DNA from: Candidatus Bathyarchaeota archaeon
GTDB taxonomy: Archaea > Thermoproteota > Bathyarchaeia > RBG-16-48-13 > GCA-020345945
Reading direction: 5' to 3'
Assembly (NCBI GenBank): GCA_020345945.1
Contig: CP070773.1
Coordinates: 545,190 to 552,165 of the forward strand
DNA length: 6,976 nt
Position numbers and translations under genes: made by a program. Shown here piece by piece: positions 3,298 to 6,315 of this stretch; within the stretch, counting starts at the first letter, position 1, and each line of letters opens with the position of its first letter. Below the pieces are notes generated by a model. That model searched no databases. It worked only from the letters and a program-made list of their open reading frames with translations, and was not told the origin of the DNA.

Positions 3298-3876
3298 ATG
3301 AAAAAATCTTTAGGTGCGAGGACTCTCGCTTTTCCAACACCAACCTGGGTTGTGGGGACCTACGACAAGGAAGGAAGACCGAACGTGATGACTGCAGCCT
3401 GGGGAGGAATCTGCTGTTCTAAACCACCCTGTATTGGTGTCTCTCTCAGAGAGGCAACTTACAGCTATGGTAATATCGTAAGACGAAAGGCATATACAGT
3501 GAGCATAGCTTCTGAGGAACACGTAAGGGAGACAGACTATTTCGGGATCGCCTCGGGAAGAGACATAGACAAGTTCTCCGAAACCGGACTCACTCCAGTG
3601 AAGAGCGATCTCGTCGACGCTCCCTACGTAGAGGAGTTTCCTCTGATCTTAGAGTGTAGACTGATCGACACAATCAAGATTGGGCTTCATACACGATTCA
3701 TCGGAGAGATCTTAGACGTCAAGGCAGATCCCTCTATACTCGATGAGAACGGGCTTCCTGATATAGAAAAACTGAGACCAATCCTCTACAGTCCAGGAAA
3801 TCGTCTCTACCATGGAGTCGGAAAATGTCTTGCAAAAGCCTTCTCGATAGGAAAGGAAAAGCCAACTAGATCGTGA
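3298..3876 (+). CDS. Flavin reductase-like FMN-binding protein
   Basis: A 192-residue protein of the flavin reductase-like (DIM6/NTAB, FMN-binding split barrel) family. Known: members bind FMN in a dimeric six-stranded barrel and typically reduce flavin with NAD(P)H, or use bound FMN as a redox cofactor. Seen: PTWVVGTYDKEGRPNVMTAAW (first strands, about 15-35), SKPPCIGVSL (41-50) and the TYSYGNI segment (54-60), which together form the usual FMN phosphate and ring environment. A central ETDYFGIASGRDIDKF (about 79-94) and the ILECRLIDTIKIGLHTRFIGEI strands follow, ending near LYHGVGK. Cysteines C39, C40 and C45 cluster beside the flavin-binding segment. It is the first gene of an apparent operon, with arsS 33 nt downstream, so it may feed electrons to, or act on intermediates of, the arsenic pathway; that role is inferred from position alone. 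No membrane segment or signal peptide is seen. Confidence 0.9.
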   Translation: MKKSLGARTLAFPTPTWVVGTYDKEGRPNVMTAAWGGICCSKPPCIGVSLREATYSYGNIVRRKAYTVSIASEEHVRETDYFGIASGRDIDKFSETGLTPVKSDLVDAPYVEEFPLILECRLIDTIKIGLHTRFIGEILDVKADPSILDENGLPDIEKLRPILYSPGNRLYHGVGKCLAKAFSIGKEKPTRS

Positions 3877-3899
3877 TACAGCTGAAATCCTCTATGATC

Positions 3900-3905
3900 A
3901 GGTGA
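3900..3905 (+). promoter_or_regulatory. Ribosome binding site supporting the TTG start of arsS
   Basis: AGGTGA (3900-3905) is a good match to the archaeal anti-Shine-Dalgarno and lies 4 nt before TTG 3910. An in-frame TGA at 3895 excludes any longer start, and no ATG occurs before the conserved core, so TTG is the only reasonable start. Confidence 0.65.
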
Positions 3906-3909
3906 GTCT

Positions 3910-4866
3910 TTGAACGATTTCGATGACAGAATCAGAGAGATCATCGGATCGGACCTTTATTCTCGTAATATCGAGACGATACAGCCCAACATAGGACTCC
4001 GCTGCAACAACCAGTGTATTCATTGTCACGTAAAGTCTTCACCTGAAAGGACTGAGATGATGGACTGGCAGATTATGCAGCTTATACTCGACGTGGCAAG
4101 AAGGGTGCAGCCGAAACTAGTAGATATAACTGGTGGGGCGCCTGAGCTCAACCCATTACTACGCCGTTTTGTGGCTGCTCTAAAGAAGGATGGTCAGAAC
4201 GTTCAGGTGAGAACGAATCTGACTGTTCTGCTTGAACCAGGAATGGAGTCCATTATAGAGTTCTATAGAGATGCTGAAGTCAAACTCGTTGCTTCTCTCC
4301 CCTGCTACCTAAAGAAGGAAGTCGACTTCCAACGGGGCGTAGGTGTCTTCGAGAAGAGTGTGAGAGTTCTTGGAGAGTTGAATAGGCTTGGCTACGGATC
4401 GGACCAACGGCTTATCCTCGATCTCGTATACAACCCAGAAGACGCCTTTCTCCCGCCAAAACAAGCTTCACTAGAGAAAGAGTACAGGGAGGAACTCTCC
4501 AAGAACTTCGGTATAGCCTTCAACAATCTGCTTACGATCACTAACATGCCGATTGGGCGTTTTCGAGAGATGCTGAAAGAGAACGGTTCGTTCACTGAGT
4601 ATCAACAGCTCCTCAAAAACTCGTTTAATCCTGAAACCATCGAGACTCTAATGTGTAGAAGTCAGATCAACATTGGCTGGGATGGGAGAATGTTCGACTG
4701 TGACTTCAACCTCGCGCAAGGGCTCTCGATGAGTGAGGGTGTACCATCACATATCCGGGATTTCGAACCGTCCTTACACTGTGAAAGGAGGATTGTCACC
4801 GGGAGTCACTGCTTCGGCTGTACCGCTGGACATGGCTCGTCTTGTGGGGGAGCCTTGATAGCATAG
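3910..4866 (+). CDS. arsS: Arsenosugar biosynthesis radical SAM protein ArsS
   Basis: A 318-residue radical SAM enzyme matching the ArsS family (TIGR04167, earlier called rSAM/SeCys-domain protein) almost end to end. Known: ArsS acts after arsenic methylation and is reported to join dimethylated arsenic to the 5'-deoxyadenosyl group of SAM, the first committed step to arsenosugars. Seen: the 4Fe-4S motif CNNQCIHC (C32, C36, C39), DITGGAPELNP (71-81) for SAM binding, RTNLTVLLEPG, VASLPCYLKKEVDFQRGVG, LILDLVYNP, TNMPIGRF, and the C-terminal DUF3641 region with MCR (C249), FDCDFN (C264), and HCFGCTAGHGSSCGGA (C301, C304, C312). C312 is the position occupied by selenocysteine in some relatives; here it is encoded by TGT. 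The TTG start is supported by AGGTGA. The gene sits 33 nt after the flavin reductase gene and 30 nt before transferase 1, suggesting one transcript. Family assignment is firm; activity in this organism is inferred. Confidence 0.95.
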   Translation: MNDFDDRIREIIGSDLYSRNIETIQPNIGLRCNNQCIHCHVKSSPERTEMMDWQIMQLILDVARRVQPKLVDITGGAPELNPLLRRFVAALKKDGQNVQVRTNLTVLLEPGMESIIEFYRDAEVKLVASLPCYLKKEVDFQRGVGVFEKSVRVLGELNRLGYGSDQRLILDLVYNPEDAFLPPKQASLEKEYREELSKNFGIAFNNLLTITNMPIGRFREMLKENGSFTEYQQLLKNSFNPETIETLMCRSQINIGWDGRMFDCDFNLAQGLSMSEGVPSHIRDFEPSLHCERRIVTGSHCFGCTAGHGSSCGGALIA

Positions 4867-4896
4867 AAGATTGAACCTGGCTGATGTAAAAGTTAC

Positions 4897-5604
4897 TTGA
4901 CGGTTGTGAAGTTGAAGATCAATACTTGCATCCTATTAATGGTCAAGTACCCTGAGAAAGGAAAGGTGAAGGGCCGTCTTAGCCGTGAAACAGACGAGAC
5001 GTTTGCAGTGGATCTCTATCGGAACTTTGTCTTGGATGAACTTTCGATGCTTGAACGGTCAAGCATCCCTTTTGTAGTCTGCTTTGATCCGGCGGACGCG
5101 ATGAAAAAGTTCAAGGATTGGTTGGGGTCGGAGTATGAATATTTGGCGCAGAGAGGGGAGGATCTGGGTGAACGGCTCAGCAACGGTCTGTCTGACGCAT
5201 TCTCTATGGGAGTAGAAAATGCTATAGTGATGGGAAGTGATATCCCGGATCTTCCGGAGAAGATACTGCTTGAGGCCTGTGCTGCTCTCGAGACCAACGA
5301 TGCGGTAATCGGACCATCGCCGGATGGTGGATACTATCTTATCGGCTTCCAGAAGACTGCTTTTCTTCCCTCAGTGTTCAAGGGGATAGCATGGAGTACA
5401 GAGACGGTGTTCAGGAAGACTGTTGAGAAGCTGAGAAGAGTCGGGTCCAGCTACTATACGCTGCCTTCTTGGGCTGACATCGATACACTTAGAGACCTCG
5501 AAAATCTTTTCGAGAGGAGCGTGGACTCGGTCTTCAGCTCTTCAAAGACGATGATGTATCTTTCCCAACATCGAGAGATGCTGGGCGAAAAGTTTCTAGG
5601 CTAA
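4897..5604 (+). CDS. TIGR04282-type transferase 1 of arsenosugar loci (DUF2064, CofC-like)
   Basis: A 235-residue GT-A-fold protein of the DUF2064/TIGR04282 family (rSAM/selenodomain-associated transferase 1), related to CofC nucleotidyltransferases. Seen: a P-loop-like KYPEKGKVKGRL (17-28), QRGEDLGERL (85-94), MGSDIPDLP (112-120) with the presumed metal-binding D115, IGPSPDGGYYLIG (138-150), and WADIDTLRDLE near the C-terminal part. Known: the family travels with ArsS and a second transferase and is assigned to arsenosugar assembly by association; the exact donor is not established. Odd: the family's usual V-K-T-R-L is V-K-G-R-L here. The start is TTG 4897 or GTG 4906, three codons later; neither has a convincing ribosome binding site (GGCTGATG lies about 10 nt before the TTG). 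It ends in a 9-bp tail-to-tail overlap with transferase 2. About 30 residues after the domain (from about 205) carry no recognised motif. Confidence 0.9.
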   Translation: MTVVKLKINTCILLMVKYPEKGKVKGRLSRETDETFAVDLYRNFVLDELSMLERSSIPFVVCFDPADAMKKFKDWLGSEYEYLAQRGEDLGERLSNGLSDAFSMGVENAIVMGSDIPDLPEKILLEACAALETNDAVIGPSPDGGYYLIGFQKTAFLPSVFKGIAWSTETVFRKTVEKLRRVGSSYYTLPSWADIDTLRDLENLFERSVDSVFSSSKTMMYLSQHREMLGEKFLG

Positions 5605-6315
5605 TTGAGTCGTCGAGTTCCTTCTTCTTACGCTTCGAGGACCTTGATCCCCCTCATATCTTCTTGCTAATTCTCTTGGATCGACTCCTACGAGGTACAG
5701 TAACATGTACCAGAGGTTTCGCAACAGTTGGGTCACAACACCATTCTCTATAAATCTTCTAGAGGATGTGATGACTGTTCCTGGGAAGAAATAGATCCAG
5801 GTTCTCTTTCTAGCCACCCGAAGTATATGGACATCCTCGAAGAGAGGCCAGTCGGGGAATCCACCCATATCATGAAAGAAGGATTTCCGGACTACGATAC
5901 ATTGGTCGCCAAACCGGGTAATCACAGAATCGAACCTTAAGAAGTAAGCACCTATATCGAGAAGCCAATGCTTAGGTTCGAAGGTCACCTTGAAGGTGCC
6001 TATCTGGACATTCTCGTCCTGAAAGCTTTCTTCTAGAACCTTGAAGGCATCTTGGGGCAGTATGGTGTCGCTGTGGAGGAATAGAAGTATATTTCCCGAG
6101 GCATTTACGACACCAGCGTTAAACTGAGGTCCCCGTCCCCGACGAGAATCTATCACGGTCGCACCTTCCTCATGGGCAATTCCTACCGTGCGGTCCTTGC
6201 TTCCCCCGTCCACAACGATTATCTCGACATCTGGGTTTAGCCTATAGACCTTACGAATAGTGTCCCTGATGCTTTCTTCCTCATTCAGGGTTGGAATTAT
6301 AACCGAGAACTTCAT
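5596..6315 (-). CDS. TIGR04283-type family 2 glycosyltransferase of arsenosugar loci (transferase 2)
   Basis: A 239-residue GT2 glycosyltransferase matching the TIGR04283 family (rSAM/selenodomain-associated transferase 2). Seen: SVIIPTLNEEESI (4-16), VVDGGSKDRT (34-43) for nucleotide-sugar binding, RGRGPQFNAG (59-68), the DXD-like metal site FLHSDT (H81, D83), FGDQC (135-139), the acidic FEDV (E160, D161; likely general base region), TSSRRF (183-188), and a hydrophobic LLRNLWYMLLYLVGV near 198-212 that could associate with the membrane. Known: it accompanies ArsS and transferase 1 in arsenosugar loci, though the acceptor is not proven. Odd: it is on the opposite strand to arsS and transferase 1 and so is transcribed separately, with a 9-bp convergent overlap of the two 3' ends. 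The ATG at 6315 has no clear free ribosome binding site; the only purine run is GAGAG, within a small hairpin (6320-6333). Confidence 0.92.
   Translation of the reverse strand: MKFSVIIPTLNEEESIRDTIRKVYRLNPDVEIIVVDGGSKDRTVGIAHEEGATVIDSRRGRGPQFNAGVVNASGNILLFLHSDTILPQDAFKVLEESFQDENVQIGTFKVTFEPKHWLLDIGAYFLRFDSVITRFGDQCIVVRKSFFHDMGGFPDWPLFEDVHILRVARKRTWIYFFPGTVITSSRRFIENGVVTQLLRNLWYMLLYLVGVDPRELARRYEGDQGPRSVRRRNSTTQLA

Follow-up and report, generated by a model that had tools for sequence, protein, structure and literature searches.

Among the known systems closest to the locus reported here are two described in bacteria. In Synechocystis sp. PCC 6803, ArsS acts with ArsM to catalyze the first steps of arsenosugar synthesis, per the portion of PMC8552651 consulted, and arsenic is adenosylated in that pathway by a radical S-adenosylmethionine (SAM) enzyme, per the consulted portion of PMC12159101. 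The arsinothricin genes arsQML of Burkholderia gladioli follow a like logic of a radical SAM enzyme plus an arsenic methyltransferase (PMC8552651, same portion), but there the group that the radical SAM enzyme transfers is 3-amino-3-carboxypropyl (PMC12159101, same portion). The subject of the present work is a 6,976-nucleotide stretch of DNA (the window) from a Candidatus Bathyarchaeota archaeon, bases 545190-552165 of source record CP070773.1, which encodes an ArsS-family protein followed by two transferases. We predict from sequence comparison that these three genes form an arsenosugar-type cassette in archaea, with a probability of about 0.66. Four direct observations carry the prediction, namely the three family memberships, the gene order, the recurrence of the cassette among related archaea, and an archaeal clade of ArsS proteins. 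As in Synechocystis, the ArsS-family protein scores above the family cut-off and has the family motifs, and ArsM is found in related archaea of the class. Unlike in Synechocystis, the host is archaeal, the ArsS belongs to an archaeal clade, a flavoredoxin gene lies upstream, arsS has no adjoining arsM (and none above cut-off in the 66%-complete genome), and the product is a prediction.

The arsS gene (3910..4866, + strand) begins with a TTG start codon. Its product matches TIGR04167, the arsenosugar-biosynthesis radical SAM family, with 419.8 bits against a cut-off of 300 and over positions 3-303 of the 303 in the profile, and also contains PF04055 and PF12345 (DUF3641, 182 bits). The initial annotation, made from the letters alone, had named the protein ArsS on the strength of its motifs and had regarded a placement outside TIGR04167 as fatal to the proposal; the profile score places it well inside, and the motifs were located as C32xxxC36xxC39 (the radical SAM CX3CX2C motif), TGGAPE at 74, DCDFNL at 263, and C301FGCTAGHGSSC312, the last being the CFGCTAGxGSSC of the DUF3641 part with cysteines C301, C304, and C312. 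No model for the arsinothricin radical SAM enzyme was present among 25 of the 26 NCBIfam matches of this protein. TIGR04167 is described as a predicted selenoprotein family with the motif GxxU in the consulted portion of PMC13188914, and the selenocysteine of that motif would fall at the position of C312. A selenocysteine reading of the window ArsS is ruled out, as the codons of the nine conserved cysteines checked are all TGC or TGT and a selenocysteine codon is absent. Separately, P0002, P0003, and 27 of 104 further ArsS proteins (P0304-P0331 minus P0328) are only 261-269 residues long and start just past CX3CX2C, which a miscalled start or, alternatively, an in-frame stop within the motif region would explain.

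The two transferases that the initial annotation had placed beside ArsS are both there. The first (4897..5604, + strand), of the TIGR04282 family (DUF2064, CofC-like), scores 186.5 bits against a cut-off of 134 over profile positions 1-189 of 189, and its solved relative 3cgx (192 bits) is a putative nucleotide-diphospho-sugar transferase. The second (5596..6315, - strand) is a glycosyltransferase family 2 (GT2) protein of the TIGR04283 family, with 233.4 bits against a cut-off of 182 over profile positions 2-221 of 221, and 76.9 bits to PF00535. Only 30 nt separate arsS from the TIGR04282 gene, and the two transferase genes lie tail to tail with an overlap of 9 nt.

The cassette is repeated in related archaea. 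In genome G532, contig C174 carries the three genes in the same order and orientation as the window (ArsS>TIGR04282><TIGR04283), with identities of 62, 58, and 62%, respectively; its ArsS scores 409.6 bits, and both transferases are above cut-off. Genome G573 has the order TIGR04283>ArsS>TIGR04282, again with all three above cut-off, and G567 starts in the same way (TIGR04283>ArsS) until its contig ends inside a 29-residue TIGR04282 match. In G429, one ArsS is encoded on a 9.1 kb contig lacking the transferases, and a second, frame-broken copy lies next to a TIGR04283 gene (G429:C28, L132 642-1605); there, a frame shift splits the arsS copy, the intact arsS being elsewhere in G429. Outside the class, a Thorarchaeota record (CP070761), with an NCBI-named ArsS of the same clade, resembles the window in that ArsS is followed by a TIGR04282 gene above cut-off (183.5 against 134). 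It differs in its flanks, in an ArsS identity of 56%, and in a TIGR04283-like gene that lies behind a membrane-protein-like gene and, at 113.6 bits, falls below the cut-off of 182.

ArsS itself is rare in the class. The class samples for ArsS, the two transferases, and ArsM comprised 250 genomes each, drawn alike, with G573 outside them. ArsS was found in five of the 250 (E<=1e-40), all above cut-off: G000 (the window's own genome), G429, G468, G532, and G567. A sample of the order yielded the window's own genome alone (1/12, E<=1e-40), and at E<=1e-60 the family of G532 gave 3/27, adding G573, and the family of G429 gave 2/9. A phylum sample, with ArsS in 1/398 genomes (E<=1e-60), had first suggested a lone transfer; this is ruled out by the class and family counts together with the trees.

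In quick trees, the archaeal ArsS proteins other than that of G468 grouped together with no named bacteria, both with 83 rows (50 of the best 80 genome loci; 26 of the 32 rows in the group without a name) and with 150 rows (25 of the best 80 loci and 119 other listed proteins; 60 of the 66 without a name). A careful tree of 52 rows, from which G468 and the broken G429 copy were left out, supports the archaeal clade at 99/99. With 56 rows, 16 of the 17 archaeal ArsS proteins fall into one clade (100/99) along with 13 rows without a name and none of the 25 named bacteria; these archaea are the window, four more members of its class, ten Thorarchaeota, and one Ranarchaeia. These trees share rows, are thus not independent, and were rooted by midpoint. 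The initial annotation had left open whether archaeal sequences form a clade or nest within bacteria: the former holds for 16 archaea, while G468 falls among bacteria, and a single clade of all 17 including G468 was rejected (p-AU 0.023, 56-row tree). The bacterial-type ArsS of G468 (G468:C20, L133 6878-7945) represents a separate transfer or bin contamination, and the window transferases gave no blast match in the 20 kb around it. The tree of TIGR04282 likewise joins the window, G532, and G573 (98/83), with the Thorarchaeota sequence next (87/51) and the deltaproteobacterial one outside (97/99). ArsS likely passed from bacteria into archaea, and the clade could reflect one entry followed by inheritance and exchange among archaea; the window locus has little of the look of a lone gene strayed in from bacteria. 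Searches for relatives on plasmids returned 52 records, all below 60% identity and all from bacterial genera, 47 of them Burkholderia, and in a search for virus-borne ArsS, 47 stretches fitted a pattern, of which none was confirmed.

If the cassette works as its families suggest, an ArsM from a part of the genome not recovered, or the uptake of already methylated arsenic from the surroundings, would supply the substrate. ArsS would then place the 5'-deoxyadenosyl group of SAM on dimethylated arsenic, giving what we take to be dimethylarsenic-deoxyadenosine. The two transferases would likely replace or extend the sugar of this product, yielding an arsenosugar, either free or attached to a lipid or polymer. 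The purpose may be arsenic detoxification or storage. The initial annotation had suggested that the host may produce arsenosugars or an arsenical nucleoside related to them, and this stands as the best reading of the sequence data.

Several observations weigh against that reading. The best match to the ArsM model NF008823 in the window's genome, out of seven hits, reaches 72 bits against a cut-off of 263, in a genome estimated to be 66% complete. The 13 rows without a name in the archaeal ArsS clade may include bacteria, and the named-genome scan covered the best 80 loci, one of them archaeal (L016). The archaeal TIGR04283 genes split into two groups, the window with G532 and, apart from these, G573, G567, G429, and G476; because of this separation, the TIGR04283 partner was exchanged or gained twice. 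The Thorarchaeota TIGR04283-like gene forms a very long branch in that tree (loci below 60 bits were dropped, one for TIGR04282 and two for TIGR04283). The functions given to both transferases are suggested by their family names, and we found no assay literature for them. In G476, both transferases are above cut-off on one contig of a genome with no ArsS match. Finally, when the window proteins were used as tblastn queries (E<=1e-3), TIGR04282-like genes were found in 24 and TIGR04283-like genes in 27 of the best 80 ArsS loci, counts that cover the stretch fetched for each locus, some stretches being short. The co-occurrence of the three families stated in the initial annotation is therefore borne out as a frequent trio and not as an obligate one.

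Some counts speak for a rival explanation, in which ArsS works as in bacteria, its product ending at the dimethylarsenic nucleoside, and the transferases serve another pathway, such as cell-surface glycans or nucleotide-sugar supply. In most of the best 80 ArsS loci, the fetched stretch contains no gene for either transferase; G476 encodes the two transferases but lacks an ArsS match; and TIGR04283 is wider than ArsS in the class, with a match at E<=1e-30 in 56 of the 250 genomes and a score above cut-off in nine, against the five with ArsS. TIGR04282 is distributed differently: it exceeds its cut-off in only three of the 250 genomes (G000, G476, and G532), two of which have ArsS, and G573, outside the sample, adds a further case. 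With the trio adjacent in G000, G532, and G573, we consider a separate role for the transferases unlikely. The G476 locus (G476:C71, L129 1996-7376) is possibly a related pathway using another radical SAM enzyme. Besides TIGR04283, TIGR04282, and a further glycosyltransferase-like gene, it encodes a membrane-protein-like product, a radical SAM/SPASM-like protein distinct from ArsS, and a methyltransferase whose nearest match, below cut-off, is to sarcosine/dimethylglycine methyltransferases.

It is similarly doubtful, in our estimation, that the cassette yields some other organoarsenical, for example an arsenic-bearing lipid head group, in place of a classical oxo-arsenosugar. TIGR04283 belongs to the GT2 enzymes, whose fold commonly acts on lipid carriers, and a membrane-protein-like gene sits beside the transferases in G567, G476, and Thorarchaeota. 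Against this, the membrane-protein-like gene is absent from the window, and ArsS is above the arsenosugar equivalog cut-off. The gene in question (L130 9016-9693 in G567, L129 2818-3486 in G476, and L016 9705-10460 in Thorarchaeota) gave no match in the libraries tried, and among the best 80 ArsS genome loci, a homologue was found in L016 only.

With respect to arsenic methylation, none of the ten window proteins scanned is an ArsM, in line with the initial annotation, which had proposed that the methylated substrate would come from a gene elsewhere or from the environment. An arsM elsewhere in the window's own genome was not recovered above cut-off. The four further genomes with ArsS in the class sample (G429, G468, G532, and G567) all contain an ArsM above cut-off. 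By itself this is not strong support, because 114 of the 250 class genomes carry ArsM anyway (G000 not among the matches). In G567, one ArsM (341 bits, cut-off 263) shares a contig with ArsS and TIGR04283 and is about 9 kb from arsS. A search for the arsenic efflux genes mentioned in the initial annotation returned an Acr3 match in the window's genome at 283.6 bits, barely above the cut-off of 282.8, and a permease of PF03773, a broad family with matches in 8 of 14 control genomes as well. Elsewhere in the class, G429:C137 (L173 7584-11209) may hold an archaeal cluster of arsenic genes: arsM lies about 1.7 kb from an Acr3-like gene (271.2 bits, cut-off 282.8), both on one strand.

The span first described as the arsenosugar locus, 3298..6315, also takes in a gene that the text of the initial annotation did not mention. 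This gene (3298..3876, + strand), 33 nt upstream of arsS on the same strand, encodes a flavoredoxin/flavin-reductase-like protein (PF01613, 112 bits, cut-off 27) whose best solved-structure match is flavoredoxin 2d5m (255 bits, residues 1-186 of 192), and it is a predicted redox partner. It could give electrons to the iron-sulphur cluster of ArsS or hold arsenic in the trivalent state. A link to arsenic is suggested because of neighbors of arsM: in G570 (L142), a relative 66% identical to the window protein begins 34 nt past arsM. Across a sample of 95 arsM loci taken from a longer match list, a flavin-reductase of either of two types lies within 300 bases of arsM in five; the type close to that of the window does so in one only, and the second type adjoins arsM in the other four, with one match weak. 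These neighbors lend weak support to a redox function, either in the methylation of arsenic or in reducing ArsS. That ArsS generally has a flavoredoxin partner is ruled out, as 0 of the best 80 genome loci have a homologue in the fetched stretch.

The rest of the window consists of genes that mark the host as an archaeon. From the left edge, these are the C-terminal piece of Rad50 (3..278, + strand; NF041034 profile positions 790-857, E 1e-05, far below the whole-protein cut-off, with the tail alone inside the window), the NurA nuclease (281..1282, + strand; PF09376 32.9 bits, cut-off 21), a HerA-like helicase (DUF87; 1171..2712, + strand; PF01935 53.3 bits, cut-off 23.2), and an archaeal histone (2819..3070, - strand; NF043032 58.3 bits, cut-off 50), followed by the flavin-reductase-like gene, arsS, and the TIGR04282 and TIGR04283 genes. 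The histone-bearing archaeal host of the initial annotation is thereby confirmed, the markers and arsS being on one piece. The source record, at 1,186,195 bases, consists in the stretches inspected of short pieces linked by runs of 100 N, such that its length does not equal physical linkage, and N runs abut the window on both sides, making it one entire physical piece. Another piece of the record encodes an archaeal-type ribosomal protein L2 whose nearest named relatives are from Bathyarchaeota, Bathyarchaeia, and Hecatellales (60-64% identity), with 11 nearer ones (74-93%) lacking a name; the host thus probably belongs to the class Bathyarchaeia or to a lineage that is its sister. A chimeric window or contaminated bin with bacterial ars genes, which the initial annotation had listed as a threat to its proposal, is a slight chance at most: the record is a 66%-complete set of N-joined pieces, no adjoining contig confirms the window, G468 does carry a bacterial-type ArsS, and only reads could exclude a chimera, but GC is 0.47-0.50 across all nine genes with no compositional break between the archaeal and ars genes, AGA/AGG make up most arginine codons in both halves of the window (half in TIGR04282), the ArsS clade recurs in five class genomes and in named Asgard proteins, and the 11.4 kb contig of G532 also encodes an archaeal S13 (TIGR03629 181 bits, cut-off 175.55; bacterial model 63, below cut-off) and an archaeal UMP kinase (TIGR02076 242 bits, cut-off 158).

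Our search by title or abstract opening found no open-licence PMC paper on archaeal arsenosugar synthesis. The main text of the Asgard selenoproteome paper PMC11227280 does not contain the terms "arsenosugar", "ArsS", or "radical SAM", and the consulted portions of PMC6395817, PMC8649762, PMC12608789, PMC9723677, and PMC9312934 hold nothing on archaeal arsenosugars. NCBI protein names already label Thorarchaeota and Ranarchaeia proteins as ArsS. The annotation of ArsS in archaea is therefore not new, while the archaeal clade and the comparison of cassettes may be.

Accounts of arsenosugar synthesis concern algae and some bacteria. With an archaeal clade of ArsS, the pathway would extend to Asgard archaea and the Bathyarchaeia-type class, both of which are abundant in anoxic sediments. 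The cassettes of the window, G532, G573, and Thorarchaeota CP070761 offer material for tests of origin and chemistry. We tentatively entertain the wider idea, as something that may well turn out otherwise, that Asgard and Bathyarchaeia-class archaea hold an inherited archaeal branch of arsenosugar synthesis, fed by an ArsM of their own, which is widespread, and by a flavoredoxin, and are unrecognized producers of arsenosugars, or of ether lipids with arsenosugar head groups, in anoxic sediments. An archaeal pathway of this kind could provide a light-independent biological source of arsenosugars.

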